Positions 6,692 through 27,342 of a stretch of DNA of 49,288 bases are shown here, piece after piece (the stretch's first letter is position 1; the number at the start of each line of letters is the position of its first letter). The stretch lies in assembly GCA_003223295.1 (NCBI GenBank), contig QHYM01000108.1, forward strand, positions 1 through 49,288, written 5' to 3'. A program made the translations under genes and the position numbers. Source of the stretch: Acidobacteriota bacterium. Lineage in GTDB: Bacteria > Acidobacteriota > Terriglobia > Acidiferrales > UBA7541. The notes beneath the pieces were generated by a model. It saw only the letters and a list, made by a program, of their open reading frames with translations, was not told where the DNA came from and ran no database searches.

Positions 6692-6866
6692 TTTGGATTT
6701 AACACCCCTTACTGGGTCTTTAATATCGCGAAGGGCGGCTGGGCGTCAATATCCCTAAAGTACTATAGCCCTCACCCGGCAGTTCTAACGTACGTAGAGG
6801 CTCGCTTTTGCCCCTGAACCTAGGCTGCGTTCACACCCTGCGGACACAACTCCCGCGCCGGCAAGA

Positions 6867-9716
<2,850 letters not shown>

Positions 9717-10187: not shown

Positions 10188-10703
10188 CTATTCCCCTTCA
10201 GGTTCTACGTCCGGAACGTCTTCGCGAAGAGTGGATTTGAGTTCGCGGCGGATGACGTCGGCGGAGAAGCCGGCGCGAAGGAGGCTGCGGTAGAGGGAGG
10301 CCAGCTTGCGCTCGTCGATTTCGCCGCGATAAGAGCGCAGCTTACGCTCGATGCGCTGTCGGACGACGCCAGCCTCGTCGGTGTTCTGGGCGGCTTCTTC
10401 GAGGGCGGCTTCGATGTGGCGGTCGGGGACGCCGCGGGCGCGTAAGTCGCGGGCCACACGAAACTTGCCCTGCTTTCGTCCCTCGGTGCGCTGTCGGGCG
10501 AACTGCTTGGCGTAGCGCGCGTCGTCGATGTAGCCATTTTGTTTTAGACGAGCGATGACTTTTTGGATGAGGTCTTCATCGGCCGTGCGGCGGATGAGCG
10601 CCTTTTTCATTTCAGAGACGGAATGCGCGCGGCGCATGAGGATTTTGATGGCCGCTTCATACAGGGCGGATTCTGTTTCGATCTGGCGGGGCTTGGGGAA
10701 CAC
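10188..10703 (-). CDS. recX: Regulatory protein RecX
   Basis: 171 aa from the GTG at 10703; the frame stays open to 10868, but that extension is translated from a purine-rich repeat tract and reads as a Pro/Phe/Leu stretch unlike RecX. Three-helix RecX repeats are visible: YEAAIKILMRRAHSVSEMKKAL, VIARLKQNGYIDDARYAKQF (the best-conserved family motif), GKFRVARDLRARGVPDRHIEAAL, and the C-terminal SLLRAGFSADVIRREL. RecX caps and inhibits RecA filaments. No recA is adjacent, but alaS lies downstream as in the classical recA-recX-alaS order. No ribosome site is visible at the chosen start, so the exact N-terminus is uncertain. Confidence 0.88.
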   Translation of the reverse strand: MFPKPRQIETESALYEAAIKILMRRAHSVSEMKKALIRRTADEDLIQKVIARLKQNGYIDDARYAKQFARQRTEGRKQGKFRVARDLRARGVPDRHIEAALEEAAQNTDEAGVVRQRIERKLRSYRGEIDERKLASLYRSLLRAGFSADVIRRELKSTLREDVPDVEPEGE

Positions 10704-10724
10704 GAGAAAGAAGATGAGGTAAGG

Positions 10725-10795
10725 ACCTAAGGAAGTAAAGAAGAAAGGAGGTAAAGGAAAAAGAGGAGCTAAAGGATGTAAAGGAGTGAGAACGG
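10725..10795 (+). repeat. Polypurine tract of irregular TAAAGGA-containing units
   Basis: On the plus strand the units GGAAGTAAAG, GGAGGTAAAGG, GGAGCTAAAGG and GGATGTAAAGG follow one another with short purine spacers. Nearly all bases are A or G apart from the T of TAAAG. It lies in the 5' region of recX (minus strand) and is most likely non-coding. Confidence 0.5.
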
Positions 10796-10893
10796 CGCTC
10801 ATTTGGGCGACGCGCGCGGAAAGATGGCAGTGGCTAGCGGTGAGAACAGAAGAAAAAAGACTGAACACAGCGCGGAGACAAGAAGTTCAAGAG

Positions 10894-10949: not shown

Positions 10950-11612
10950 CTATTCACCGGCGGGTTTGGCGCCGGGGAGACGGCCCTTGAGGAGTTTGAT
11001 CTGGCCGTTGTGGTTGGACTCGTGTTCGGCGACATGAAACCATTTGCAGTAATTGTTGGTGGGTCCCCAGCCCCAGTCTTTGTCGACGGCCATGAGCCAC
11101 TTGTCGTCGCGCTTGCGAAATTCGGCGAGAGTTTTCTCGCGGGTTTCCCTTACCAAGTTCAGATAGTAATCGAGATTGTTGCCTTTGATGGCTTTGCGCG
11201 CGGGTTCGCCGAGGCCGCCGGGCACGTCCCACTTTTGTTTGATGCTGTCCGACCAACTGTCCCACTTGAGGCCATCGAAAGTGTTGAGTTGGAAAAACGT
11301 TTCGACGGCGGCCAGATGCAGGAGGAGGGCGCCAATGCGGTTGGCTTTGTCGTCGAGGAGGAAGTCGAGTTGCTCGGTGGAAAGACCTTTGGTGGACATC
11401 AGAACCTGCGCGCGCGTGAAGGCCATCATGGAGGTGAGCGTCCCGATTTCCGGGGAGAAGCCTTTCTTGGGGCCGACGATGGTGTCGGATTCGTCAGGTG
11501 GGGCCGTTGCGGAAGGCTGCGCGAAAAGGGTTACACCGGAGAATCCTGCCGCGAGCGTAGCGGTGGTCTTGAGGAAGCTACGGCGTGTGGGCCAGCAGTC
11601 GCAGGGCGTCAT
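10950..11612 (-). CDS. DinB-fold protein with Tat signal peptide
   Basis: 220 aa from the ATG at 11612, chosen because GGAG lies 5 bp before it and it opens a twin-arginine signal (TRRSFLKTTATLAAGFSGV). The mature part is a four-helix DinB/YfiT-type domain: HLAAVETFFQL carries the first His ligand and HVAEHESNHNGQI the last two, the usual metal triad. DinB-fold proteins include thiol-dependent transferases and many uncharacterised members; export through Tat suggests that metal or cofactor binds before secretion. The substrate is unknown. The DUF3592 gene begins upstream on the same strand and its 3' end lies 95 bp away. Confidence 0.8.
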   Translation of the reverse strand: MTPCDCWPTRRSFLKTTATLAAGFSGVTLFAQPSATAPPDESDTIVGPKKGFSPEIGTLTSMMAFTRAQVLMSTKGLSTEQLDFLLDDKANRIGALLLHLAAVETFFQLNTFDGLKWDSWSDSIKQKWDVPGGLGEPARKAIKGNNLDYYLNLVRETREKTLAEFRKRDDKWLMAVDKDWGWGPTNNYCKWFHVAEHESNHNGQIKLLKGRLPGAKPAGE

Positions 11613-11706: not shown

Positions 11707-12222
11707 TCAGGAAGAAGAAGACAAGTCCCGTGTTCGAGCACGGCGGGCGAAGAAAGCGAGAAAGCCCCTGAGCGAAGCAAGGGCCACCGGAAGGCCAATC
11801 ACAAAGCAGGGCGCCCAAGGGAGCCAGTTCCAGGAACCGCGGTCGATCATGGCGAAAGAAGGGTCCGCCGGATCATAAATAACTGGCACGGACCAACCCG
11901 TGCCGTCCCTGGATTCCGAGCCCTTCCATTCCTGAAAGCGAACCACTCGATCGCCAGCGTTGAATTCAACAAGGGGTTCGTAAATCGTGGTGTACCAGTT
12001 CGAGCCGTGACTGGTCCGGTAAGAGAACTTCACAGGTTTGAGGTCCACGATGGTGCCGCGTGTTCGTGCGCCCTTGAAAAGCAGATGAGCATGCACGTGT
12101 CCCGTGGCGTAGGCCAAGCTCAGAAACAGTGCTGCAGCGAGGAATTGCGGGATGAACGAGTAGCGGGCAATCTTCTCGCGGTTTGCGAGCACCCAGGCAA
12201 CTTGGTCTTGAGGAAAGGGCAT
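11707..12222 (-). CDS. DUF3592 membrane protein
   Basis: 171 aa. Two membrane helices (about 24-42 and 134-155) enclose an extracytoplasmic beta domain of DUF3592 type: RGTIVDLKPV, the YEPLVEFNAGDRVVRF strand and VPVIYDPADPSFAMID, the signature end of the family. The C-terminus is basic with a Ser-rich tail. DUF3592 proteins have no established biochemical role. The ATG at 12222 has only a weak GGAAAA upstream. Confidence 0.8.
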   Translation of the reverse strand: MPFPQDQVAWVLANREKIARYSFIPQFLAAALFLSLAYATGHVHAHLLFKGARTRGTIVDLKPVKFSYRTSHGSNWYTTIYEPLVEFNAGDRVVRFQEWKGSESRDGTGWSVPVIYDPADPSFAMIDRGSWNWLPWAPCFVIGLPVALASLRGFLAFFARRARTRDLSSSS

Positions 12223-12267: not shown

Positions 12268-12288
12268 AAAAAAGCGGCGTCGCGCCGC
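12268..12288 (-). terminator. Rho-independent terminator behind a copy of the pilT 3' end
   Basis: On the minus strand GCGGCG - CGA - CGCCGC is followed by TTTTTTC, a classical intrinsic terminator. It begins 8 bp after the stop codon contained in the 43-bp pilT tail copy, so it may be the original pilT terminator, now serving the TPR gene. Confidence 0.8.
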
Positions 12289-12296
12289 GCTTCAAA

Positions 12297-12339
12297 CTAC
12301 TTGCGGGCGAAGCGCTCGAAGTCGGCCATCTGGCGCTCC
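12297..12339 (-). repeat. Exact 43-bp copy of the pilT 3' end (distal copy)
   Basis: All 43 bases are identical to 14870-14912, the last codons of pilT including its stop codon (minus-strand reading MADFERFARK-stop). The two copies are direct repeats flanking the TPR gene. Identity stops sharply at both sides. Confidence 0.97.
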
Positions 12340-12386
12340 TACCTGTCTGGAACTGGGATTCTATCAGGCACGCAAAGCAAAAGGGG

Positions 12387-12416
12387 CAATCAGTTGGGGT
12401 TTGCCTGAGCTGATTG
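12387..12416 (-). terminator. Possible terminator at the end of the TPR gene
   Basis: CAATCAG / CTGATTG form a 7-bp stem with a 16-nt loop overlapping the TPR gene stop. On the minus strand it is followed by CCCCTTTTGC. Weak by itself; the strong hairpin at 12268-12288 is a better candidate. Confidence 0.3.
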
Positions 12417-14834
12417 AAGCGATTGCAAGCGTTTCTGAATCTCGTTGGCTTCGTCTGCACGCCCAAGTTTCCGAAGGGCCTCGGCTTCCGCGGTCAAGTC
12501 GCGAACGAGATACGGACTATCGGCGCCGAATTGTTTCTCCTCTATGGAAACGAGGCGAGCGTGGCAGGGCGCGGATTTGTCGGGCTTGCCCCATTGATCA
12601 TAGACATAGCAAAGATTGCCCAACGGAATGCCTATGGGCATGTCGTCGCTGTTGTAGGCGGTCTCATAGATGTGAATCACGCGCAGCAAAGTAGACTCAC
12701 TCTTGGCGAAGTTTTGTTCCTTCAGGTAGACGCTGGCCAAGCCGCTCAAGGTTTCGGCGACGGCGGTGCTGTCTTGGCCATAGGTGGCCGCATTCAAGTC
12801 AATCGCCTGAGAAAAGAAGGTTTCGGACCTGGCGAAATCTCTCTGAGCGGCCGCGACCATAGCGAGGCTCTCCAATGGGGGAGTGATCATGGGTGATTTC
12901 GGGCCGTAAAGCTTCTGGCACAAAGTAAGCTGGCGCTTGTAAGTTTCCTCGGCGTTCTTGAGGTCCATCCGCCACGCGTAAATGCTGCCCAGCCGGCCGA
13001 GCGCCTCCGGGAGGCGGCCGTCCTGGGGCTGTATTTTCTCGGCAATTTCGATGGCCTGCTTGGCGGAAGTTTCCGCGTCATCAAAGCGTTTTTCGGTGAG
13101 TGCCACTTGGCTGGCTTGCATGGCGTCATGAAATCTGTCGTCGACGTTAGTCGTTGAGGCTTTGGCACGCAGTGCGGACTCGAGCGCGGCGGCTTCCGAA
13201 GACTTGCCCGATGAGCGCAAGTCGGCGAGATGTTGTTGGAGGCGCCGCTGAGCGTTGGCGTATTTGCGCGAGGCGTCATAGTAAGCCGCGATCGTGCCCG
13301 GCTTGAGCGGTGGTTCGTCGAGGGCCGCCCGGTGGTAATTCTCCAGGGCGCTGAGCCAATCACCTTTCTTCTCCAGGGCGGAAGCCAGGTCGAGGCGCGC
13401 TTGAAGCTCCTTGGGGGCGATGGAAAGCGCTTCGCGGTACTCACCGATCGCAGCATCGCGGTTGCCGGTGTTCTCGAGAGCCTGCCCGAGGAGGTCGTGA
13501 TGACTCCAATTCGCCGGGTCGGCCTCCACGGCGCGCTTAAACTCGGCGATCGCGGCGGGAAGGTCCTTTCTTAGGACCAACATCCGGCCTACGTCGGCGG
13601 ACGCCGGACCATAGCTGTTATCAAGTTTCTCGGCCTGTCGGTATTCCCGCAGGGCGGCTTCGTAGTTCTTTTGGGATTCGTAGATGCGTCCCAGGCCGAG
13701 ATGGGGGCCCGGCGAGGCCGGGTCGAGCTGCGCTGCGGTGCGATATTCCTTCTCCGCATCCTGGATTCTTCCTGTTTGGAGAAGCGCTTCTCCCAGGCAG
13801 GCATGGCAGACCGGCCAATTGGGTGCGAGGGCAGCAAGCTCGCGAAATTCGACAATGGCGGCAGCGGGGTCCGTGTGCATCAAGGCGGCGCCAAGATTCT
13901 GACGAGCTTCGAGGTGTTTAGGGTCGAGGCGCTGCGCTTCACGGTATTCACGAATGGCGGAAACATAGTCGCCTTTGTTGCCAAAGCTGACGCCGAGGTT
14001 GTAATGAATGTTGGCATCGCCGGGGTTGAGCATGAGAGCTTTCTTGTACTGTTCGGCGGCGCCGTCAAAATCATGCAGCTCATCCAATAGTTGCCCCATG
14101 AAGTAATACGCCAGGGCGTAATCGGGCTTGCTACGAATGGAGGCCTGCAGTTCGGACTTGGCGGCATCGAAGTTGCGCATGTTGAGCAGAGCGGCGCCGG
14201 CGTTGAGATGCGCCACGGGATTGTTCGGATTCTCCGCTAGGGCGGCTTTGGCTTCGCGGAGCGCATTCTCCGGGTCGCCGATTTCAAAATATGTCGCGCT
14301 GAGCCTTGCGTGAACCTCCGGGAAGTCTGGATCCCGCTCAAGGATTTGCGAGTAGAGCTGGCCAGCCTCCTGAGAGCGTTGCTGATCGAGGAGAACTATG
14401 CCCATAACGAAACCGGCTTCCAGTCTTCCCGAGCCGCCGGTGATGGCAGCACTCAGCTCATTGGTCGCCTCGTCGAACCGGCTCGTGCGAATCATTCTTC
14501 CGGCAGTACTCAGATGTTGAAGCAGAGCAGAATTTTCGGCGCTATCGGCCGGCTCGCGCGAGGCAATTTTAGCAGCGGTCAGTGCGACAAGAACTTTGGG
14601 GTCGGCGCCGGCGGCCTTAAGGAGGGACTTGTAGTTCTCGTCCGGGGTGAAGCTCAATCCGCGCGATTGGATTTGAAACACGATGTTTTCAGGCTGAATT
14701 TTACCCGCAACAAGGGCAAGGACTTCACTCTTGCGCAGTGGGCGAGGAGACGAATTTGACGGAGTCGCGGAGACGAACGCAGAGAAAAGAATCGCGAGAA
14801 CGACCAGCGACAGACGTAGCGTTTGTTTTTGCAT
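12390..14834 (-). CDS. Large secreted TPR-repeat protein
   Basis: 814 aa. Signal peptide at 1-24 (LRLSLVVLAILFSAFVSA). Residues 35-90 form a short domain (LRKSEVLALVAGKIQPENIV) seen in front of TPR arrays in Acidobacteriota, followed by at least ten 34-residue TPR units with the usual W/L-G-Y-A-F-A-P pattern (for example NPVAHLNAGAALLNMRNFDA, GDANIHYNLGVSFGNKGDYV). The last 250 residues resemble the longer kinesin-light-chain-type TPRs (LGSIYAWRMDLKNAEETYKR). TPRs mediate protein contacts; no catalytic domain is seen. The gene is enclosed between two exact copies of the pilT 3' end, suggesting it was placed there by recombination. Confidence 0.88.
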   Translation of the reverse strand: MQKQTLRLSLVVLAILFSAFVSATPSNSSPRPLRKSEVLALVAGKIQPENIVFQIQSRGLSFTPDENYKSLLKAAGADPKVLVALTAAKIASREPADSAENSALLQHLSTAGRMIRTSRFDEATNELSAAITGGSGRLEAGFVMGIVLLDQQRSQEAGQLYSQILERDPDFPEVHARLSATYFEIGDPENALREAKAALAENPNNPVAHLNAGAALLNMRNFDAAKSELQASIRSKPDYALAYYFMGQLLDELHDFDGAAEQYKKALMLNPGDANIHYNLGVSFGNKGDYVSAIREYREAQRLDPKHLEARQNLGAALMHTDPAAAIVEFRELAALAPNWPVCHACLGEALLQTGRIQDAEKEYRTAAQLDPASPGPHLGLGRIYESQKNYEAALREYRQAEKLDNSYGPASADVGRMLVLRKDLPAAIAEFKRAVEADPANWSHHDLLGQALENTGNRDAAIGEYREALSIAPKELQARLDLASALEKKGDWLSALENYHRAALDEPPLKPGTIAAYYDASRKYANAQRRLQQHLADLRSSGKSSEAAALESALRAKASTTNVDDRFHDAMQASQVALTEKRFDDAETSAKQAIEIAEKIQPQDGRLPEALGRLGSIYAWRMDLKNAEETYKRQLTLCQKLYGPKSPMITPPLESLAMVAAAQRDFARSETFFSQAIDLNAATYGQDSTAVAETLSGLASVYLKEQNFAKSESTLLRVIHIYETAYNSDDMPIGIPLGNLCYVYDQWGKPDKSAPCHARLVSIEEKQFGADSPYLVRDLTAEAEALRKLGRADEANEIQKRLQSLQSAQANPN

Positions 14835-14869
14835 CGGGCCCCCTAGAGAGGAAATTTTCTTCTGACCAG

Positions 14870-14912
14870 CTACTTGCGGGCGAAGCGCTCGAAGTCGGCC
14901 ATCTGGCGCTCC
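14870..14912 (-). repeat. 43-bp pilT 3' end (proximal, in-gene copy)
   Basis: This is the last part of the intact pilT gene with its stop codon. It is repeated exactly at 12297-12339 in the same orientation, 2.57 kb away. Confidence 0.97.
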
Positions 14913-16015
14913 ATTTCCTCGCGGGCGGCGTCGGAAGCGGAGCGGATGCCTTGGATGCGCAGCTTGAATTCGTCGGCGTTGGAGGCGCGCGCCAGAGCTT
15001 CGTCGATGGTGATGAGCTGCTTAGAGTACAGATCGAAGAGCGACTGGTCGAAGGTCTGCATGCCGTACTGGCTGGTACCGGCGGCGATGGCGTCGTGAAT
15101 CAAGCGCGTCTTGTCGGGGTTGATGACGCAGTCACGGATGTACGCGGTGGCGATCATGATTTCAACGGCGGGAACGCGGCCCTTATCGTCGGCGCGGCGC
15201 ACCAGGCGCTGCGAAATGACGGCTTTGAGCGTGGCGGCAAGCTGCAAACGAATCTGTTTCTGCTCGGGCGGCGGGAAGACCGCGATAATACGCTGAATGG
15301 TTTCCGTGGCGTCGAGAGTGTGCAAGGTGGAGAGCACGAGGTGGCCGGTTTCGGCGGCCAGCAAAGCGGTGGAAATCGTTTCGAGGTCGCGCATTTCGCC
15401 GACGAGGATCACGTCGGGGTCTTGACGGAGAGCGGCGCGCAAGGCGGTGGAAAAGTTCGCGGTGTCGACTTCGACTTCGCGCTGGTTGATGAAACTCTTT
15501 TTGTCGCGGTGCAGAAACTCGATGGGGTCTTCGATGGTGATGAGGTGGTCGGCGCGGGAGGCGTTGATGCGATCGATGATGGCAGCAAGGGTGGTGGACT
15601 TACCGGAACCGGTGGTTCCGGTGACGAGCACCAGGCCGCGCTGCTCTTCGCAAATCTTGTTGATGACCGGGGGAAGATTTAGCTCTTCCGCGGTGCGAAT
15701 TTTCGTGGGGATGACGCGCAAAACCATGCCGACGTTGCCGCGCTGCTGGAAGACGTTTACACGGAAACGGCCGAGGCCGGCGACCCCGTAGGCCATGTCC
15801 AATTCCGCCGTTTCCTTAAACTTTTGCTTCTGGCGGTTGGTCATCATGCTGAAAGCCATGGAAAGCATTTCTTCGGGGGTGATGCGAGGCACGTCGGTGA
15901 GCGGGGTGAGCAAACCGTCTATGCGCAAATAGGGATGATTGCCGACTTTGAGGTGCAAGTCGGAGGCCTTATTTTCGACGGCTCGGCGGAGCAGATCGTC
16001 AACGCTGGTCGGCAT
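14870..16015 (-). CDS. pilT: Type IV pilus retraction ATPase PilT
   Basis: 381 aa from the ATG at 16015 (PTSVDDLLRRAVENKASDLH is the canonical PilT start; a TTG 6 codons upstream is possible). N-terminal PAS-like domain to about 105; RecA-like ATPase with Walker A GTTGSGKST (133-141), Asp box (ITIEDPIEFLH), Walker B region (DVILVGEMRDLET), and His box (GHLVLSTLHTLDA). The C-terminal region includes AIAAGTSQYGMQTFDQSL, close to the PilT AIRE-type segment needed for retraction. Hexameric motor that depolymerises type IV pili for twitching and DNA uptake. No other pil gene is adjacent. Its last 43 bp are duplicated beyond the TPR gene. Confidence 0.95.
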   Translation of the reverse strand: MPTSVDDLLRRAVENKASDLHLKVGNHPYLRIDGLLTPLTDVPRITPEEMLSMAFSMMTNRQKQKFKETAELDMAYGVAGLGRFRVNVFQQRGNVGMVLRVIPTKIRTAEELNLPPVINKICEEQRGLVLVTGTTGSGKSTTLAAIIDRINASRADHLITIEDPIEFLHRDKKSFINQREVEVDTANFSTALRAALRQDPDVILVGEMRDLETISTALLAAETGHLVLSTLHTLDATETIQRIIAVFPPPEQKQIRLQLAATLKAVISQRLVRRADDKGRVPAVEIMIATAYIRDCVINPDKTRLIHDAIAAGTSQYGMQTFDQSLFDLYSKQLITIDEALARASNADEFKLRIQGIRSASDAAREEMERQMADFERFARK

Positions 16016-16122
16016 AGTCAGGGAACCCCGCAAATGTTCAACTACTCAACGAAGCTAGCATTCGAGGGAGGGGCGGGCAAGCCAAGCGGACCGACTGGTT
16101 GCGCGCTAGTTACCTGTCCTGG

Positions 16123-16160: not shown

Positions 16161-16847
16161 TCAGGCCTTTTTCAGGAAGACGGAGTCGTAGAGCAGGCCG
16201 GCCAGGAACCCTCCGGCAAGCGGGCCAATCCAGTAAATGCCATGATGAGCCCAGTACGTGGCGGCAAGCGCCGGACCAAAGGCGCGCGCCGGATTCAGGG
16301 CCGCGCCCGTAAGCGGGCCGGCCACCAGAATACCGAGGGTGATGGTCAGGCCAATGCCGAAGCCGGAGATGGCCTTGAACGCGCCCTTTTCATCGACGGC
16401 GGTGGCAAAAACGACGAGGACGAGGAAGAAGGTGGTCACGGCTTCGAGGGACATGCCCGCCCAAACCGGAAAATCCCGCGCCAGCTCGGGCGTACCTAAA
16501 TGGACGGCGCGCCAGGTGTCATCAGGAATGACCGTCTTTAGGACGAAAGCTGCAACGACGCCGCCCAGGAGCTGCGAGGCCCAGTACAGGAGAGCTTCGA
16601 TGGTGTTGATGCGCTTGGTGACCCAAATGCCGATGGTGACCGCGGGATTGTAATGGCCGCCGGAGATGTGGCCCATTGCCGAAACCATAATGCCGATCGC
16701 CAGGCCGTGCGCGAGCGCGATGCCGAGAAGGCCCAGGCCGCCGGAGCTGTGCAGGTACTGATCCGCGCAGATGGAGCCGGCGCCAAAGAAAATCAGGGCA
16801 AATGTGCCGATGAATTCCGCTACGAGTTTTTGCGAAATGCTGTACAT
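16161..16847 (-). CDS. aqpZ: MIP-family channel, AqpZ-like aquaporin
   Basis: 228 aa. The ATG at 16847 has a perfect GGGAGGAA ribosome site; an in-frame codon at 16883 would add 12 residues without one. Six membrane helices and the two half-helix NPA boxes are visible: HYNPAVT (67-69) and ALNPARAFGP (185-188), the second with the selectivity-filter Arg. Helix 1 reads AEFIGTFALIFFGAGS, typical of AqpZ. Family knowledge: fast water channel, sometimes also passing small solutes. The large residues around the pore (F, H-like positions) fit a water-selective type rather than a glycerol facilitator, but this is judged by eye. Confidence 0.9.
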   Translation of the reverse strand: MYSISQKLVAEFIGTFALIFFGAGSICADQYLHSSGGLGLLGIALAHGLAIGIMVSAMGHISGGHYNPAVTIGIWVTKRINTIEALLYWASQLLGGVVAAFVLKTVIPDDTWRAVHLGTPELARDFPVWAGMSLEAVTTFFLVLVVFATAVDEKGAFKAISGFGIGLTITLGILVAGPLTGAALNPARAFGPALAATYWAHHGIYWIGPLAGGFLAGLLYDSVFLKKA

Positions 16848-16988
16848 GGAGATTCCTCCCAAGATGGAAAGGAAAATGGGCACGCTTCGAACGGGTGCAT
16901 TCTAGCCGCAATGCGGCGCGGAAAGCCAGTCCCTGAGGAAGACCTGAGGAAGACGCGTTAACAGGTGGCAGTTGAGATCAGGGAAGTT

Positions 16989-18368: not shown

Positions 18369-19316
18369 TTAGCGCGAGGCGGCGCTGACCGGAGCGCCGA
18401 CCGGCGTGAGCCAGTTGTGACGGTCGGGCTTGGTGCCGCTAGTAATGGCGAAGAACTCTTCCTGCAGCCTGCGCGTGATCGGTCCGGCCACGCCTTTGCC
18501 CACCTGAATGTGGTCGACCGAGCGGATGGGCGTAACTTCCACGGCGGTGCCCACGAAGAAAACTTCGTCGGAGATGTAGAGCATCTCGCGCGGAACCACA
18601 CTTTCCTTGCAGGGAATGCGAAGGTCTTCGGCAATCTTCATGATGGCGTCGCGCGTGATTCCGGGAAGAATGCTGGTCGCCAGCGGCGGCGTATAGAGCG
18701 TGCCGTCGTGCACCAGGAAAATGTTCATGCCGGAGCCTTCACTGACGTGTCCATCGGAATCCAGAGCGATTCCTTCGGTAAAACCGTTGAAGGACGCTTC
18801 CATGCGAATGAGCTGCGAATTCATGTAATTCGCAGCGGCTTTGGACATGGCGGGGAGTGTGTTTGGCGCGATGCGCGTCCAGGAACTGACGCCAACATCG
18901 ACGCCTTTCGAAAGCGCGTCGGGGCCGAGATAGGCGCCCCAGCTCCAGCATGCCATGTAGAGATCGATTGGCGAATTGAGAGGATTCACGCCCACATCGC
19001 CGTAGCCGCGGAGAACGATGGGCTTCACGTAACAGGAATTCATTTTGTTGACGCGCACGAGTTCGCAAGCGATGTTCGAGAATTCGTCGACGGAATGCGG
19101 AAGCTCCATGCGATAGATGCGGGCGGAGTTGATGAGCCGCTGCATGTGCTCACGAAGGCGGAAGATGGCCGGGCCCTGCTTGGTTTCGTAGCAGCGGATG
19201 CCCTCGAAAACCGCGGAGCCGTAGCTGACGACGTGGGAAAGAACGTGCAGCGTGGCGTCGTCCCAGTTGATCCATTTTCCGTTATGCCAGATTTTCTCAG
19301 TCGGCTGAATGGCCAT
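18369..19316 (-). CDS. ilvE: Branched-chain amino acid aminotransferase
   Basis: 315 aa, usual length for class IV PLP enzymes. The Schiff-base lysine is K159 in LPAMSKAAANYMNSQ. Other IlvE motifs are VSYGSAVFEGIRCYET, LKPIVLRGYGDVGVNP (phosphate side), EGSGMNIFLVHDGTLYTPP and SILPGITRDAIM. It catalyses the last step of Leu/Ile/Val synthesis and the first of their breakdown. A GGGGAG sits 6 bp before the ATG. Close to the archaeal/Aquifex-like IlvE type with the short N-terminus. Single-gene transcript ending in a strong hairpin. Confidence 0.96.
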   Translation of the reverse strand: MAIQPTEKIWHNGKWINWDDATLHVLSHVVSYGSAVFEGIRCYETKQGPAIFRLREHMQRLINSARIYRMELPHSVDEFSNIACELVRVNKMNSCYVKPIVLRGYGDVGVNPLNSPIDLYMACWSWGAYLGPDALSKGVDVGVSSWTRIAPNTLPAMSKAAANYMNSQLIRMEASFNGFTEGIALDSDGHVSEGSGMNIFLVHDGTLYTPPLATSILPGITRDAIMKIAEDLRIPCKESVVPREMLYISDEVFFVGTAVEVTPIRSVDHIQVGKGVAGPITRRLQEEFFAITSGTKPDRHNWLTPVGAPVSAASR

Positions 19317-19452
19317 GAATGCTCCCCTTGAATAAGGCCGCGTCTGCGGTGCGGCTGGAAGTTTCAGAATACGGTACCGGAAGAGCGAGCGTCAATGCAT
19401 TGGGAATGCGCGAACAAGGGGCGCGGAATCCAAATTGGCGCGCGTCGCGTGA

Positions 19453-20403
19453 TTAGTTTTGGTTTCCACTGGAAGGGTTCTTGACGCCAGCAGGCTTACC
19501 CGGCATGCCCAAAGAAGCAGGCCGTGCCGATGAAGGTGACGACGAATTGAACGTTTCTAAAGCAGTGCGGGCCTCCCGGAGAACACGGTCCGACATGTTC
19601 TCGGCAACGCCCAAAAGGAGAAAAGGGATGGCCGTTGCGGCAACCAGGAGCTTGGCCCTCCGTGGAACTTTGGCTTCCGGTTCCCAGCGAAAGAGCTGCG
19701 CGGATAGAAAGAACGTAAGGCACGCCCAGACGGAAAGCGAGAGGATCTCCACGTAGCGGCTCCAGGGAGTGGTGGAGTTTACTACGGTTTGCTGGAGCCC
19801 ATTGACAAGATACGTGGCGGGGAGAAACAGGCCAAAGCGCTGTACCGTCCGCGGCAGATACGCCAAGGGGAAGGTAGCGCCTGAAAGGAAAATCAATGGC
19901 AGCCACAAAAGCTGGTTCAGCACCTGCGTTTCTTGCATGGTGTTGGTCACGCTAGCGACGACCAAGCCCAGCGAGCCAAAAGAAACAATGCCTACGGAAA
20001 CGAGGATGAAGAGAGAAACAGGATTCCCGAGGCTCGGAACGTGAAAAATGACGCGCGCAAAGAACAATTCAAGAATGACGATAGGAAGAGTAAGCACATA
20101 GTTGGCAACAATACTCGAAGCCAGCAGGTCGCTGGCGCTCACCGGAGCGACGTGGAAGCGACGCAGAATCCCCTGTTCGCGAAACAAAACGAGTGTGGCG
20201 CTTAGCCCCCAGAAACTGCCCATCACATTGAAAGCCACGATAGGACCGAGGTAAAAAGCGCAGCGCTCTGGAATGCCTTTGGCAAGGACGCCAAGCCAGA
20301 GAAAGAAGAAAGCGAAAGGCATGACAATTACGAAAAAGAAGAACATCTTGTTGCGGAACGCAATTTGGATGCGCATGCGCGTCAGAGCGGCGAAGTTTTT
20401 CAA
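19453..20403 (-). CDS. ABC-2 type transporter permease
   Basis: 316 aa. Six membrane helices: about 20-42, 52-74, 97-121, 130-155 (VSLFILVSVGIVSFGSLGLVVASV), 163-185 (LLWLPLIFLSGATFPLAYLP) and 222-244. The NTMQETQVLNQLLWLPL segment followed by the PRTVQRFGLFLPATYLVNGL region is the ABC2_membrane signature of drug, lipid or polysaccharide exporters. Its start overlaps the ATPase gene stop by 4 bp (ATGA), so they are translationally coupled. A Ser/Pro-rich 60-residue tail follows the last helix. Substrate unknown. Confidence 0.9.
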   Translation of the reverse strand: MKNFAALTRMRIQIAFRNKMFFFFVIVMPFAFFFLWLGVLAKGIPERCAFYLGPIVAFNVMGSFWGLSATLVLFREQGILRRFHVAPVSASDLLASSIVANYVLTLPIVILELFFARVIFHVPSLGNPVSLFILVSVGIVSFGSLGLVVASVTNTMQETQVLNQLLWLPLIFLSGATFPLAYLPRTVQRFGLFLPATYLVNGLQQTVVNSTTPWSRYVEILSLSVWACLTFFLSAQLFRWEPEAKVPRRAKLLVAATAIPFLLLGVAENMSDRVLREARTALETFNSSSPSSARPASLGMPGKPAGVKNPSSGNQN

Positions 20404-21320
20404 TCGCGGAGCCTCCTCCCGGTGAATTCGATGAAGACGTCTTCGAGAGATGGAGTGGCGATTTCGAGGCTGACGAGTTCGTTGCCGCCAGCCTCCAGGT
20501 GTTTCACGAGAGAAACGATCGTCTGTGGCGGACGCTGGGAATGCAGAACATAGGCGCCGTCCACTTCGCGGGCATCCACCACCCCTTCTAGCGTCTTCAA
20601 AGTACCGTTGGACTCGGGCTTGGAAAGGCGCACTTCGATGCGCGTGGTGCCGCCCGAGCGGGCTTTCAATTCACGTGGGGTGCCCAACGCAATCACTCTT
20701 CCATGATCAATGATGGCCACACGGTCGCAGAGACGCTCGGCCTCCTCGATGTAATGCGTAGTCAGCAGTACGGTTTTCTTGTCACGCCGCAGCTCTTCAA
20801 TTACGTCGTAGATTTCGCGCCGCACTTGCGGATCGAGGCCGGCGGTGGGCTCGTCAAGGAAGCACACCTGCGGGTCGTTGACCAGGGCCATGGCGAGCGC
20901 GAGACGCTGTTTTTGTCCGCCGGAAAGCTGGCCATAAAAAGAATTCTTCTTCTCATCGAGGCCGAAACGCTTGAGCAATTCCTGAGGATCGCGTTGACGT
21001 TTGTAAAAACTCGCGAAGAGCCGGATCGCTTCGATGACCCGCATCTTGTCGGGCAGGGAAGTGGCCTGAAGCGCGGCGCCGATTTCCTGCTTTAGCGCTT
21101 CGGAATCGCGCTGCGGGTCAAGGCCGCACACGGAGACGCGGCCGGAGTCGAGCGTGCGCAAGCCCTCCAGGATTTCGACCGTTGAAGTCTTGCCCGCTCC
21201 GTTGGGACCGAGCAGGCCAAAGACTTCGCCCTCTTCAATGCCAAAGCTGACGCCGCGCACGGCCTCCACGTCGCCGTAGCGCTTGACCAGGTTCTCCACC
21301 TGCAAAATGGAATTGGCCAT
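20400..21320 (-). CDS. ABC transporter ATP-binding protein
   Basis: 306 aa from the ATG at 21320; a longer in-frame start exists but the extra 68 residues are not ABC-like. Walker A GPNGAGKT (38-45), Q-loop (ALQATSL), signature LSGGQKQR (132-139), Walker B with CFLDEP (156-158), H-loop (TTHYIEEAERLCDRV). The C-terminal 90 residues (DUF4162-like) end in PSLEDVFIEFTGR, typical of CcmA/NatA-type exporters of drugs or lipids. Works with the ABC-2 permease encoded 4 bp overlapping downstream. padR is transcribed divergently 264 bp away. Confidence 0.93.
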   Translation of the reverse strand: MANSILQVENLVKRYGDVEAVRGVSFGIEEGEVFGLLGPNGAGKTSTVEILEGLRTLDSGRVSVCGLDPQRDSEALKQEIGAALQATSLPDKMRVIEAIRLFASFYKRQRDPQELLKRFGLDEKKNSFYGQLSGGQKQRLALAMALVNDPQVCFLDEPTAGLDPQVRREIYDVIEELRRDKKTVLLTTHYIEEAERLCDRVAIIDHGRVIALGTPRELKARSGGTTRIEVRLSKPESNGTLKTLEGVVDAREVDGAYVLHSQRPPQTIVSLVKHLEAGGNELVSLEIATPSLEDVFIEFTGRRLRD

Positions 21321-21517
21321 ATTCGTCGATTCCGGCCGGGTCGGACCCGTACGGGAAAGAGAGCGTATAGCATAACGCAGATGCCCTGTTTCCTTGTAAA
21401 CGCGCAGGCTCCGGCCGAGGGGATTCGTCAGTTTGTACGCAAGCGATGGCGCAAATATTACTGGAAAAGATGTTGAACGACGGGAGTGCGAAGACACGGT
21501 CCAAGACAACTCTCTCC

Positions 21518-21547
21518 TTGACAATCTACCTATCGAAGGTTTATATA
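21518..21547 (+). promoter_or_regulatory. Sigma-70-type promoter of padR-ADOP operon
   Basis: A perfect -35 TTGACA (21518-21523) is followed after 17-18 bp by an A/T run TTATATAT that supplies a -10 (TATATA at 21542). The start codon of padR is 38 bp further on. The ATATATGT run overlapping the -10 could be the autoregulatory PadR operator (inference). Confidence 0.65.
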
Positions 21548-21584
21548 TGTCGAACGTCTAGGAGTGGCTGTGCCGAGGGTACCC

Positions 21585-21920
21585 ATGCCGATTGAGAAAT
21601 CCGAATTGTTGCAGGGCACCTTGGACATGCTGATCTTGAAGATCGTGGCGCTTGGCCCGGTGCACGGCTACGGTATCTCGCAGCGAATCCGCCAGATTTC
21701 CAAGGAAATTCTGCAGGTGCAGCAAGGTTCGTTGTATCCCGCGCTCCATCGCCTGGAGAAACGAGGCTGGCTCGAAGCCGAGTGGGGTGAATCGGAAAAA
21801 GGCCGGCAGGCCAAGTTCTATAAGCTGTCCGCGAAGGGCCGCAAGCAGCTGGCCAGCGAGGAGTTGAATTGGAATCGCCTGGCCGGCGCTGTATCGCAAA
21901 TCCTGCAAACTGCGGAATAG
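21585..21920 (+). CDS. PadR-family transcriptional regulator
   Basis: 111 aa. The ATG at 21585 follows GAGGG with good spacing; a GTG seven codons upstream (21564) is a less likely start. The sequence SELLQGTLDMLILKIVALGPVHGYGI is the canonical PadR opening, then the winged helix with QQGSLYPALHRLEKRGW and the wing KAKFYKLSAKGRK-type segment (GRQAKFYKLSAKGRKQL). Winged-helix repressor, usually autoregulated. In Acidobacteriota it is routinely paired with an ADOP permease gene, as here, 9 bp downstream. Ligand unknown. Confidence 0.95.
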   Translation: MPIEKSELLQGTLDMLILKIVALGPVHGYGISQRIRQISKEILQVQQGSLYPALHRLEKRGWLEAEWGESEKGRQAKFYKLSAKGRKQLASEELNWNRLAGAVSQILQTAE

Positions 21921-21929
21921 AGGTCTACC

Positions 21930-24524
21930 ATGTCCTGGTGGAAATCCCTTTTTCCCAAGCGCGCGTCAGGCGTACACCTTGACTCCGAACTGCGCTTTCA
22001 TATCGACGAACTTACGGAAGATAACATCGCTGCCGGGATGCCGCCGGACGAGGCGCGCCGCAGGGCCATGCTGGAATTCGGCGGACAGGAACAGGTCAAG
22101 GAAGAAGTGCGCGATGTGTACCGTATCCGAGTCATCGACAGCACGATAGCCAACGCAAAAGCCGCGATGCGGTTTGTCCGCAAGTCGCCGTCATTTTCAC
22201 TTACGGTGATTTTGACCCTGGCTCTGGGAATCGGCGCGAACAGCGCGGTGTTCTCCGCCATCGATACGGTTTTGCTGCGGCCCTTGCCTTTTCCCGATGG
22301 CGATCAACTGATGCGGCTGGAGCAAGTCAATCACAAGGTAAAAAACCCCGAAACCCACGTCGCCCCCCTGCGGCTGGAGGACTGGAACCGGCAGGGTTCC
22401 ACATTCCAGGCGATCACGGGATATTACACGGAGGATGTTTCCGAGAGTTCCGGCGCGCTGCCTGAAAAAGTAACGGCAGCCTTTGTGGCGCCGAGATTCT
22501 TGCAAGTCTGGGGGATCGTGCCCGCTCTCGGTCGCGACTTCAATGCCGAAGAAGAACACTTTGGGGGACCGCAAGCGATTCTTGTTAGCGATCGTTTTTG
22601 GCGTCGCCGACTTGGCGCCGATCCGAGCGCGCTTGGAAAGAAGGTGCGAATCCTCAGCATGTCCTTTTCGATTGTGGGAGTCATGCCTGCTTCCTTTCTG
22701 TTCCCCGACCGGGACGTTGATCTCTGGACCCCGGTACCACTCGATGCACCGTACTCACAGAGCAGGGAATCAACGTGGTACATCGCCATCGGGCGGTTGA
22801 AGCCAGGGGTGACGCTGGAGCAGGCGCGGGCAAATCTGGCCACCGTTCAGGCGCAACTGGGCAAGGCATTTCCAAAAACAGATGCGGACCTGGACGTCGG
22901 TATTCAGCCGCTGAAAGAGACGACGATTGCTGGCGTGCGCGGTTCGCTGTGGATGTTGTTTGGTTCGGTGTCGCTCCTTCTTCTGGTCGCTTGCACAAAC
23001 ATTGTTGCGTTGCTCCTGGCACGCGGAGTCCAGCGCCAGCATGAGATTTCCGTGCGGCTGTTGCTGGGGGCTTCGCGCGCCGCGGTCGTAACTCAATTGC
23101 TGAGCGAAGCTTTCGTTTTGGCGCTGGCGGGAGCGCTCTTCGGTTTGCTTGTCGCGCGCGGAGCTTCGAACGTGTTCCGGGCGCTTGCGGGAAATTTACC
23201 GCGAGTGCAGGAGATTCGCCTCGACTGGAGAATTGTGTTGTATTCGCTGGGCTGCTCGGTGCTAGTGACTGTTTTCTGCGGTTTATTCCCAGCCATCCGC
23301 GGCACGAGAAGTATCTCCAGTTCATTGGCGCAAGCCAGCCGCACGCAGGTGTCTGGACGTCACGCGCTGCAATGGCTGCTCGTGGGTGTGCAGGTGGCGC
23401 TTGCGGTGACGTTGCTGACGGGTGCGGGGTTGCTCGTGCGAAGTTTTCAGGAACTTGGCCGAGTGTCGCCTGGATTCGACCCGAGGAATGTTCTGACCTT
23501 TCATATCAGCGGATCGTATGGAGAAACGGCGGACTGGAAAGGCCTCCAGCAACGAATTGAGCGAACGCTGGATTCGCTGCGATCCTTGCCAGGTGTGGAA
23601 GAGACAGCGACCAGTGCGGAGTTGCCCGGTGCGGCTCGTCAATATGAGGCGGAACTGAAACTGACCGAGGGGCAAGTGGACCCGGAACGCAAGATCCTGG
23701 CGGAGAGCCGTTTCGTTTCTCCGGACTATTTCGCCACCATGAAGATTCCGCTTTTGGCAGGCGAAGTCTGCCGCGCAGACCCCAAGTCCGTCAATGTTTT
23801 GGTGAATCGCACCTTTGCGAACACGTATCTTGCCGGAGAGACTGCGATCGGGCGTCACTTGCAAGTGCCTGGCAAGACGCTGCTGACGGGCGGGGAGATT
23901 CGAGGGATTGTCGGGGATGCACGGGAGGAAGGCTTAAACCGCGAACCGGGCCCCACGGTGTATTGGTGCGTGAGCGCTCCTGACCCCGACCCCTATTATC
24001 TCGTGCGCACGCGAGGCGAGCCCATGGCCATGGCGGACACGCTTCGCCGGAAAGTTCATGAAATCGAACCGGCCCGGTCGATGTTCGACATCATGCCACT
24101 CGAGGATCATCTCGATGAGGCGTCGGCGGAAAACCGCCTTCGCACAGTTCTACTGGGATTCTTTGCGGTGACGGCTGTGTCTCTCGCTTGCGTTGGCCTG
24201 TACGGTACACTTAGCTACACGGTGAGCGTCAGGCAGAGAGAAGTAGGGTTGCGTCTCGCCCTGGGAGCTTTGCAGGCGCAAATCGTGAAGCAGTTTTTGC
24301 TTCAAGGCCTCCGCGTTACCTTGCTAGGTTGTGTCGCCGGCTGGGGGCTTGCCGTGGCTTTTGCACGCGTGCTGTCCGGAATGCTGTATGGCGTTTCAGT
24401 GACGGACGCGGCGACCTTGTCCGCGGTGGTGTTTCTCATGTTGGTTGTTGCGGCGATCGCTTCGCTGGTGCCGGCGATTCGCGCGGCGCGCGTGGAGCCG
24501 ATGCAGGTTCTGCGCGAGGAATAG
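21930..24524 (+). CDS. ADOP-type ABC permease (MacB/FtsX duplicated)
   Basis: 864 aa. Residues 1-75 are the permease prefix domain (DSELRFHIDELTEDNIAAGM, EARRRAMLEFGGQEQVKEE). Membrane helix 1 at about 88-110 (LTVILTLALGIGANSAVFSAI, the ADOP signature), a MacB-like periplasmic domain to about 325, FtsX helices at about 335-445, a second periplasmic domain, and a second FtsX module at about 745-860 ending in the PAIRAARVEPMQVLREE signature. These acidobacterial duplicated orphan permeases lack their own ATPase gene nearby. Role inferred as mechanotransmission or export with an unlinked ATPase; PadR probably controls its level. Confidence 0.95.
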   Translation: MSWWKSLFPKRASGVHLDSELRFHIDELTEDNIAAGMPPDEARRRAMLEFGGQEQVKEEVRDVYRIRVIDSTIANAKAAMRFVRKSPSFSLTVILTLALGIGANSAVFSAIDTVLLRPLPFPDGDQLMRLEQVNHKVKNPETHVAPLRLEDWNRQGSTFQAITGYYTEDVSESSGALPEKVTAAFVAPRFLQVWGIVPALGRDFNAEEEHFGGPQAILVSDRFWRRRLGADPSALGKKVRILSMSFSIVGVMPASFLFPDRDVDLWTPVPLDAPYSQSRESTWYIAIGRLKPGVTLEQARANLATVQAQLGKAFPKTDADLDVGIQPLKETTIAGVRGSLWMLFGSVSLLLLVACTNIVALLLARGVQRQHEISVRLLLGASRAAVVTQLLSEAFVLALAGALFGLLVARGASNVFRALAGNLPRVQEIRLDWRIVLYSLGCSVLVTVFCGLFPAIRGTRSISSSLAQASRTQVSGRHALQWLLVGVQVALAVTLLTGAGLLVRSFQELGRVSPGFDPRNVLTFHISGSYGETADWKGLQQRIERTLDSLRSLPGVEETATSAELPGAARQYEAELKLTEGQVDPERKILAESRFVSPDYFATMKIPLLAGEVCRADPKSVNVLVNRTFANTYLAGETAIGRHLQVPGKTLLTGGEIRGIVGDAREEGLNREPGPTVYWCVSAPDPDPYYLVRTRGEPMAMADTLRRKVHEIEPARSMFDIMPLEDHLDEASAENRLRTVLLGFFAVTAVSLACVGLYGTLSYTVSVRQREVGLRLALGALQAQIVKQFLLQGLRVTLLGCVAGWGLAVAFARVLSGMLYGVSVTDAATLSAVVFLMLVVAAIASLVPAIRAARVEPMQVLREE

Positions 24525-25811: not shown

Positions 25812-27032
25812 ATGGGGGACTACACTCTTTCTCTCGATCCAACCAAACGCAGCACGGATACGATTGATTTCCAAGCGTCGCTGCGCGAGAAGATCGTCGG
25901 CCAGGAAGAGGCCGTACAGGCGCTCGTCGACCTGTACCAAGTCTTTCGCGCCGGCTTGAATTCGCCGGGCCGCCCGGTGGGGAATCTGCTCTTTCTCGGA
26001 CCGACGGGTTCCGGAAAGACGCGCATCGTGGAAGCGGCCGCCGAGATCCTGTTTGGCGATGCCCGCGCGGTCATCAAAGTGGATTGCGCGGAGTTTCAGC
26101 ACTCTCACGAGATTGCCAAGCTAATTGGCTCGCCTCCAGGCTATCTGGGGCACCGGGAGACCCACCCACTTATCACTCAAGAGACTCTGGGAGCCTGCCA
26201 TACCGAAAAGCTGAAACTCAGCTTCCTGCTTTTCGACGAAATTGAGAAGGCCAGTGACGCCTTGTGGCAGTTGCTCCTGGGCATGCTGGATAAGGCCACG
26301 CTCACCCTCGGTGACAATCGCAAGGTGGACTTGTCCAAAACGGTCATTTTTCTCACCTCGAACTTGGGTGGTGGAGAAATCAGCGAGCTGATGGAAGGGG
26401 GCATGGGCTTTATCCAGCCAAAAGATAAGCCGGCAGCCGGCCTGAACGAAAAGGTCGAGCGCACGGCCGTGGAAGCGGCCCGGCGCAAGTTCTCGCCAGA
26501 ATTCATGAACCGCCTGGACAAAGTCGTGGTATTTCACCCCCTGCGGAAGGAGCAATTGCAGGAAGTGCTGGATATCGAGTTGGGCCAAGTGCAGCAGCGT
26601 GTGCTAGATACGGCCAAGGGGCAGTTCCTCTTCCGCGTGACTCCAGCAGGGCGTGATTTCCTGCTTCTGGAAGGCACCGACCAGCGCTACGGAGCGCGGC
26701 ACCTGAAGCGAGCCATCGAGCGCCATGTGGTGTATCCGCTGGCCAACCTGCTGGCCACCGATCAAGTAAATTTGGGCGATTTGGTATGCATTGATTGGGA
26801 TAAGACGAACAATCGGCTCACTTTCGTGCGAGAAGGCGAAGGGGCCCTGGTGGAACCGGCGGCGAAGCGTGCCGGAGCCGCAGCAGCAGGCGCGGAGGCG
26901 ACCGACGGCAAATCGGTGAACGCTCCCGAGGAAACAGTTGGGGAAGAGCGGAAATCGCGTGCGGCGCAGCCAGGTGGAGGGTCCTCCGCAGCGCCACAAA
27001 GCCGCAAGAAGCAAGATCGTTCCAATTCGTAG
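25812..27032 (+). CDS. Single-ring Clp-type AAA+ ATPase (copy 1)
   Basis: 406 aa. AGGAGG lies 6 bp before the ATG. One AAA+ module of the ClpA/ClpB second-domain class: Walker A GPTGSGKT (63-70), pore loop GYLG (110-113), Walker B FLLFDEIEK (D142, E143), sensor-1 N184 in LTSNLGGG, Arg finger R234 in FMNRLD, sensor-2 R296 in YGARHLKR, then the small helical domain. No ClpB/ClpA N-domain or D1 and no ClpX zinc domain. At the position of the ClpA IGL loop it has GGMGFIQPKDK (M198-G-F200), matching the [LIVMP]-G-[FL] ClpP-docking pattern. Residues 344-406 are an Ala/Glu/Ser-rich, probably disordered tail. Likely unfoldase; protease partner and substrates unknown. Confidence 0.9.
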   Translation: MGDYTLSLDPTKRSTDTIDFQASLREKIVGQEEAVQALVDLYQVFRAGLNSPGRPVGNLLFLGPTGSGKTRIVEAAAEILFGDARAVIKVDCAEFQHSHEIAKLIGSPPGYLGHRETHPLITQETLGACHTEKLKLSFLLFDEIEKASDALWQLLLGMLDKATLTLGDNRKVDLSKTVIFLTSNLGGGEISELMEGGMGFIQPKDKPAAGLNEKVERTAVEAARRKFSPEFMNRLDKVVVFHPLRKEQLQEVLDIELGQVQQRVLDTAKGQFLFRVTPAGRDFLLLEGTDQRYGARHLKRAIERHVVYPLANLLATDQVNLGDLVCIDWDKTNNRLTFVREGEGALVEPAAKRAGAAAAGAEATDGKSVNAPEETVGEERKSRAAQPGGGSSAAPQSRKKQDRSNS

Positions 27033-27071
27033 TGCAAAAACGTCTTAAAGTAAAACTTTAACTCCTTGAGT

Positions 27072-27099
27072 GGGGCGCATACAAAATGCGCCCCTTTTT
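27072..27099 (+). terminator. Rho-independent terminator of the first Clp-like operon
   Basis: GGGGCGCAT / ATGCGCCCC form a perfect 9-bp stem with loop ACAAA, followed by TTTTT. It lies 40 bp after the stop codon, so the second AAA+ gene needs its own promoter. Confidence 0.93.
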
Positions 27100-27102
27100 G
27101 TC

Positions 27103-27183
27103 GTAGGGCGCATGACACAAAGTGTTCGGCTCTCTCATTCTTGACTCAAATCGGACGCAATCTCAGCTTGTGAGACGCCCTAC
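27103..27183. repeat. 81-bp element bounded by 8-bp inverted repeats GTAGGGCG
   Basis: GTAGGGCG at 27103-27110 and its complement CGCCCTAC at 27176-27183 bound the element. Inside are small hairpins (GACAC-AAA-GTGTT and TCTCA-GCTTG-TGAGA). Both ends carry the GTAG tetranucleotide, as do the REP-like palindromes elsewhere in the window, so it may be an inverted REP pair (BIME-like) or a small non-autonomous element. No coding potential. Confidence 0.45.
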
Positions 27184-27250
27184 AGAATCTAGAATCTTGT
27201 ATGTAGCTGAAATTAGTGTGTTTCCTCTCTAGCAACAGCGTTCCACGGAT

Positions 27251-27266
27251 TGGCATGCTCCATGCA
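27251..27266 (+). promoter_or_regulatory. Candidate sigma-54 (-24/-12) promoter
   Basis: TGGCATGCTCCATGCA matches the RpoN consensus core: GG (27252-27253), exactly 10 bases, then GC (27264-27265), with TGGCA and TGCA around them. It is 76 bp before the ATG of the second AAA+ gene and behind a strong terminator, where a promoter is required. Confidence 0.45.
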
Positions 27267-27342
27267 CTATCTCAATGTTCGCGCGAGGAATGAGACGCGC
27301 GTCGCGTTTGGGGAGAACTAGACGCGGAGAGAGGTCGAACCG

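Follow-up and report, generated by a model that had tools for sequence, protein, structure and literature searches.

A displaced pilT 3′ end in an acidobacterial genome probably records the gain of a single gene from a relative, and two further sites carry the same kind of scar

Gene content and layout of the pilT locus

The window, by which we mean the whole 49,288-nucleotide stretch of DNA that was analysed, carries on its minus strand, in order of transcription, an aquaporin-like gene, pilT, a TPR gene, a second pilT tail, a hairpin, a DUF3592 gene, an MST/DinB-like gene, recX and alaS. The aquaporin-like gene (16161–16883) is followed by the anchor gene pilT (14870–16033), which encodes the type IV pilus retraction ATPase, belongs to the PilT/PilU family and matches NCBIfam TIGR01420 above the cut-off (E = 2e-145). 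A 35-nt spacer (14835–14869) leads from the pilT stop to the start of the inserted TPR gene (12390–14834), whose 814-aa product carries many TPR repeats and a conserved N-terminal segment; the N-terminus is hydrophobic and looks signal-like by eye. All scores of the protein against the TPR equivalog models are below the cut-off. A second spacer of 50 nt (12340–12389), with no above-chance match elsewhere in the genome, separates the TPR stop from a point at 12339/12340, and there the end of pilT begins again (12297–12339). The DUF3592 gene (11707–12222), the MST/DinB-like gene (10950–11612), the recX ORF (10188–10868) and alaS (6867–9716) follow, with recX as the downstream boundary of a variable pilT–recX slot.

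The two pilT ends form an exact direct repeat of 43 nt (12297–12339 and 14870–14912; 100% identity, same orientation, spacing 2573). The proximal copy (14870–14912, minus strand) is the working 3′ end of the pilT ORF, including its TAG stop, and the distal copy likewise terminates in TAG. A repeat search thus recovered the exact recurrence given in a preliminary description of this DNA, and the TPR gene is indeed enclosed as stated there, being the sole ORF between the copies. Chance can be ruled out for an exact 43-bp repeat within 49 kb, and a third copy of the tail is absent from the 6.0-Mb draft genome with up to three mismatches allowed.

Eight bp past the distal stop lies a terminator-like hairpin (12274–12288, minus strand), a stem with six G-C pairs running into TTTTTT, which is now the first terminator downstream of the TPR gene. 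It had been called a strong terminator; its position and clean stem speak for a terminator, but the site count does not, as a terminator scan gave seven sites against a shuffle mean of 5.9, about equal. We therefore call it a terminator by position and stem rather than by count. Across the joint (12297–12389) the sequence also creates GGTAGGAG seven bases 5′ of an ATG in the distal tail. A possible ORF of ten codons (MADFERFARK), in the reading frame of pilT, lies there; both are probably fortuitous.

The extent of the repeat bears on one origin that had been proposed for it, a tandem pilT duplication whose second copy was deleted down to its last 43 bp when the TPR gene arrived. The distal copy does stand in the order that a tandem copy would leave. 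However, pilT homology upstream of it does not reach past 43 nt (43 of 1,164 bp matched), the relatives examined have no neighbouring second pilT, and the TPR gene would still need an insertion of its own. We consider a tandem relic highly improbable.

The slot between pilT and recX in relatives

In all 29 relatives that have both genes on one stretch, recX lies 14 bp to ~4.6 kb downstream of pilT (G013 and G029 are uninformative here, pilT being cut by a contig end). The content of this slot differs from species to species, and may be nothing (for example in G001, G015, G017 and G024), DUF3592, an MST-like gene or other ORFs. DUF3592 is immediately 3′ of pilT in G012 (70% identical) and G033 (50%), and the MST-like gene holds that place in G025. 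In the outgroup genus (G036) recX begins 39 bp after pilT. A TPR remnant occupies the slot in one of the 29 (G032). Judged by G012 and G033, the junction of pilT tail, terminator and DUF3592 at the distal copy is where an insert-free chromosome would have it. These empty sites agree with the earlier proposal of an insertion behind pilT that regenerated the 3′ end of the gene, and neither of the patterns that would have spoken against it was seen: the pilT–TPR order is not common to the relatives, and the distal copy carries no additional pilT sequence. It had also been expected that pilT would be followed directly by the terminator in TPR-free relatives. This is so, by eye, in G028 alone among the pilT ends printed, where a hairpin similar to the distal one comes directly after the pilT stop; the other printed ends did not obviously show it.

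A second pilT tail was found in none of 21 relatives checked (best 17–26 of 43), and the tail itself is identical at 33–42 of 43 positions within the genus. Its third-position identity is high (11 of 367 windows as high), but after amino-acid correction it is unremarkable (49 of 367), and nucleotide-level constraint on the tail, which would have been a sign of an attachment site, was dropped for this reason. These observations bear on the idea that a small element or a decayed island was integrated site-specifically, in which case the 43-bp copies would be attL and attR at the pilT 3′ end. Islands that sit in the 3′ ends of genes show this geometry, with a restored gene end and the old end beyond the insert, and the genome has 23 Phage_integrase matches. 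Against this, contig C261 has no match in a search confined to the Phage_integrase family (PF00589), the insert is one gene with margins of 35 and 50 nt, and the conservation of the tail is ordinary. Reuse of an attachment site was not seen either, since the genome has two copies only and none of the 21 relatives has a tail copy, G026 included as far as its contig end, and the two other scars described below sit in unrelated genes with unrelated sequence. Integration of this kind seems very unlikely.

Distribution and phylogeny of the TPR gene

Orthologs of the TPR protein (E ≤ 1e-90) occur in 16 of 89 family genomes. The gene is missing from the five nearest relatives (G018, G031, G012, G019 and G025), with nothing at pilT and no ortholog at E ≤ 1e-90 genome-wide. 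The two genes have conflicting histories. In the pilT tree (28 rows) the genome under study (G000) and these five form a clade of six (100/99) and G026, a distant member of the genus, falls elsewhere; in the TPR tree (16 rows) G000 and G026 group together (100/100). G026 has the TPR gene directly behind pilT, seen only up to where its contig ends inside the gene (the genome is 85% complete with 5% contamination), and its spacer at this place is 36 nt long against 35 nt in G000, the two being only weakly similar (an equal or higher score in 21 of 500 shuffles). In 14 of the 15 relatives with an ortholog, pilT lies outside the fetched stretch. G032 retains a decayed 111-aa TPR remnant with one in-frame stop, squeezed between pilT and recX (11769–12164). 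No donor with both the pilT–TPR order and an identical tail was found among the relatives. The G+C content of the insert (0.585) is close to that of the window (0.583).

Several of the TPR orthologs (e.g., L063, ~8000–8060) have, by eye, a palindrome-like element (about CTGGCCATCTGGTCAGGTA) 60–130 bp before the start; the CTGGCCATCTGGTCAGGTA-like element is absent in this form before the inserted gene of G000. A motif that by eye seemed conserved between the regions 5′ of other TPR orthologs and the surroundings of the distal joint was rejected, with one window match at up to three mismatches.

The same distribution could be read with the polarity reversed: the lineage would have inherited pilT–TPR, and the tail, terminator and DUF3592 would have come from a TPR-free relative and been joined behind the TPR gene. 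The pilT–TPR order in G026 and the decayed remnant in G032 suggest that the linkage may be old, and the gene orders in the slot fit an old array with many losses. Such losses would indeed be needed in number, because the five nearest relatives have no TPR ortholog anywhere at E ≤ 1e-90 and pilT and recX are adjacent in the outgroup. On balance we think this reading unlikely.

Age of the insertion

Although the distal copy no longer encodes part of pilT, none of its 43 sites has changed, which gives a 95% bound of 0.07 per site if it is neutral and unconverted. Distances at fourfold sites between G000 and its five nearest relatives are 0.31–0.36, and the probability of 43 unchanged sites if the event were as old as those splits is ~0.0005–0.0013. 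Hence, granted neutrality and the absence of gene conversion, the sequence comparison supports a recent insertion, in line with what had been suggested at the outset.

Two further loci of the same build

In 897,442 bases of the genome, window included, with 680 mechanically called ORFs, we surveyed the tails, heads and middles of genes for further copies. The contigs surveyed are a non-random set, namely the first-numbered ones, those named by earlier matches, and the window. Two further loci, C380 and C11, have an anchor gene, one inserted gene and a displaced tail of the anchor gene.

At C380 (L155) the anchor is a biotin-carrier gene (6834–7334) and the insert an FAD-dependent oxidoreductase (DAO) ORF (7387–8568) in the orientation opposite to the carrier gene. 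The displaced carrier tail starts at 8641, in a locus that extends to 8722; it is exact for 39 nt, then diverged with a 12-bp deletion, and in frame to the stop. In 20 of 21 relatives a SurA/PPIase-like ORF comes next after the carrier gene (1.5-kb flank); none of the 21 has the oxidoreductase at the site, and none has a second carrier tail (best 17–21 of 39). Among the 89 family genomes the oxidoreductase is found in G000 alone. The 3′ flank of the distal stop matches the post-carrier sequence of G019 and G011 (0 of 200 shuffles each), weakly that of G012 (12 of 200), and not clearly that of four others (two clear matches in seven); the flank of the proximal stop has at best a weak match (G019, 6 of 200 shuffles). 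The proximal tail encodes an end in AWVN and the distal tail one in CIVG; the near relatives G018, G019 and G012 end in CVVA, and 8 of 21 relatives end in AW-x-x. At the DNA level the proximal tail is nearest to G022 and then to G019, which is not clear-cut, and the allele assignment is ambiguous. Both copies share an identical 39-nt core, which no relative matches at more than 35 of 39 positions. This suggests that both cores come from the genome's own lineage, an outcome expected if the crossover lay downstream of the joint or if a circle was integrated.

At C11 (L137 and L226) the anchor is a 410-aa gene (18425–19657), the insert an 821-aa permease-like ORF (19716–22181), and the displaced tail (22190–22240) is 82% identical over 44 nt and in frame to the stop. 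The distal tail matches G008 and G012 for 18 and 37 nt past the stop, and the proximal tail has a match past the stop (11 nt) with G018 only, where a 15-codon permease-like start can be made out by eye, without a BLASTP match. This case appears weaker, because the coding part of the proximal tail matches G012 and G008 as well, and because the ORFs that follow the displaced tail were not found in the flanks of nine relatives.

A stop-anchored protein survey placed C11 (score 68) and pilT (66) at the top of the short downstream matches, followed by a permease pair (57) and the rest at 49 or less. Its controls gave short upstream matches of 41 or less and, on the opposite strand and in one shuffled-tail set, none among short matches. 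This survey misses C380 because of the 12-bp deletion there. In all, the 680 ORFs yielded three tail-scar loci, with scars of 43 to ~90 bp, and no clean head scar. The 400 kb surveyed in G032 (292 ORFs) yielded no tail scar, which is not a significant difference (3/680 versus 0/292; p = 0.56). All three scars lie close to the gene end, with a product of 0.0003 that is post hoc and assumes uniform joints.

Several survey matches were set aside: C35 is by eye a dispersed repeat, L234 a case of permease paralogs, and the matches at L143, in the remainder of C380, at window positions 25812–28506 and in G032b were judged to be paralogs from their coordinates and their matching heads or middles. Low-scoring matches (e.g., L128, C4, C358 and L241) were judged by coordinates alone. 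The window positions just named hold two adjacent paralogous ORFs that share exact repeats of 26 and 29 bp.

The diverged copies at C380 and C11 also speak to an assembly artefact that fused the alleles of two strains at pilT. The draft has 481 contigs and 4.49% contamination, and the pilT repeat is exact. A join of the TPR gene to a pilT tail would nevertheless need real reads across the junction, and the copies at the two other loci, being diverged, cannot arise by such a join. We rate an artefact as the least probable of all the readings considered.

Proposed course of events

The duplicated gene end, the empty sites, the conflict between the TPR and pilT trees and the two more loci of the same build are most likely explained by a recombination scar: DNA carrying a pilT end and the TPR gene would have recombined at pilT and displaced the resident tail and terminator. 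DNA of a relative in which the two genes were presumably linked would have entered the cell, and its homologous end would have paired and recombined with the resident pilT, presumably through RecA. The far end, just past the TPR gene, would then have joined the resident chromosome, without long homology, 43 bp before the pilT stop. As a result pilT would retain a full 3′ end, either the donor's or a hybrid, with the TPR gene behind it, and the resident last 43 bp, the terminator and DUF3592 would have moved to the far side of the TPR gene. The same product may have come from a circular rather than a linear form, that is, a circle with a short pilT tail and the TPR gene, integrated by one crossover. 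At all three loci the incoming DNA would have found its anchor within the 3′ portion of a resident gene, with the far end joined shortly before the stop of that gene, and selection would retain joints that are harmless to both neighbours.

Homology at one end is consistent with an intact pilT behind which the insert starts directly, and with the pilT-linked TPR gene of G026. At the joint, the copies share no homology past the repeat, and microhomology can be judged only against the sequence of a donor joint. Identity to relatives in 95-nt bins shows no visible recombination breakpoint in pilT, and neither tail is marked as the donor's, the two being identical. On the distal side at C380 and C11, similarity to insert-free relatives extends beyond the stop, and the assignment of the proximal side is ambiguous.

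As to the route of entry, the DprA and ComEC families were not detected in G000 (the ComEC search covered this genome only). DprA was found in 28 of 37 genomes searched, including the close relative G012, and was not detected in G018, G019 and G017 either; these three and G000 are at least 95% complete. This speaks against textbook natural transformation as the route.

A bolder reading, which strikes us as quite unlikely, is that displaced tails bear witness to a standing route by which this lineage acquires single genes, with a bias to resident 3′ ends. If it were true, genes would be moved either by a circular intermediate that carries one gene and a short stretch of the gene upstream of it, or by machinery that favours gene ends, and scars could tell the donor, anchor side and age of each transfer.

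Relation to known systems

Single genes in bacteria are usually gained or lost between conserved neighbours without a mobile element or any trace of the mechanism. A displaced 3′ tail, by comparison, shows which gene served as the anchor and where exactly the joint lies, and its decay tells how old the event is. Because two other sites of the same genome bear the same kind of scar, the pilT scar probably records how this bacterium gains single genes from relatives. Three loci in ~0.9 Mb of one draft genome suggest that such scars can be counted per genome, and counts would make it possible to measure how much of gene gain is due to one-sided recombination.

The kind of event is already known. 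In homology-facilitated illegitimate recombination (HFIR) incoming DNA is anchored by homology at one end and joined without it at the other, and non-mobile genes are inserted (PMC3240628, PMC2884548); it has been described as a source of small variable segments (PMC2884548). In a test in E. coli most of the unexpected products were gene-end duplications, of 109–950 bp in 14 sequenced clones, and were explained by a single crossover with a circle that had been shortened (PMC3240628). The laboratory HFIR product as described in these sources has a deletion, whereas the pilT locus has a 43-bp duplication and no evident deletion, and the present genome is without detectable DprA and ComEC. Unequal recombination in pneumococcal transformation provides another published parallel (PMC3784515).

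In the displacement of Rhs C-termini, too, a new segment is placed behind a conserved anchor, and the former 3′ end comes to lie downstream together with a little of the anchor sequence; the authors proposed circular intermediates (PMC2935791). The displaced part described there is the toxin-tip coding end, in arrays at one locus, whereas pilT, C380 and C11 have unrelated whole genes behind unrelated housekeeping-type genes. The anchors (pilT, a biotin carrier and a 410-aa protein) and inserts (TPR, DAO and a permease-like ORF) are not those of a polymorphic toxin system. Vibrio T6SS loci have been modelled with an anchor and an illegitimate joint, but involve effector–immunity modules under strong selection rather than a single gene as behind pilT (PMC5361080). 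Like integrase-free hotspots, pilT–recX is a variable slot between conserved genes with no visible integrase; the model for those hotspots is double homologous recombination in both flanks, and this leaves no displaced tail (PMC5635113). A limited search of the open-access literature found neither a description of the pattern nor 'homology-facilitated illegitimate recombination' together with 'Acidobacteria'. With three scars in less than 1 Mb of one genome, the pattern is more than a curiosity.

These loci also advise caution, as short exact repeats flanking a gene need not imply an integrase or transposon. Repeats also occur on C28 (L139), a contig with no Phage_integrase match: the 3′ end of a tRNA-Asn gene (1470–1544) recurs twice downstream, at 7168 and 10057, exact over 47–50 bp, and these repeats resemble traces of tRNA-targeted integrative elements.
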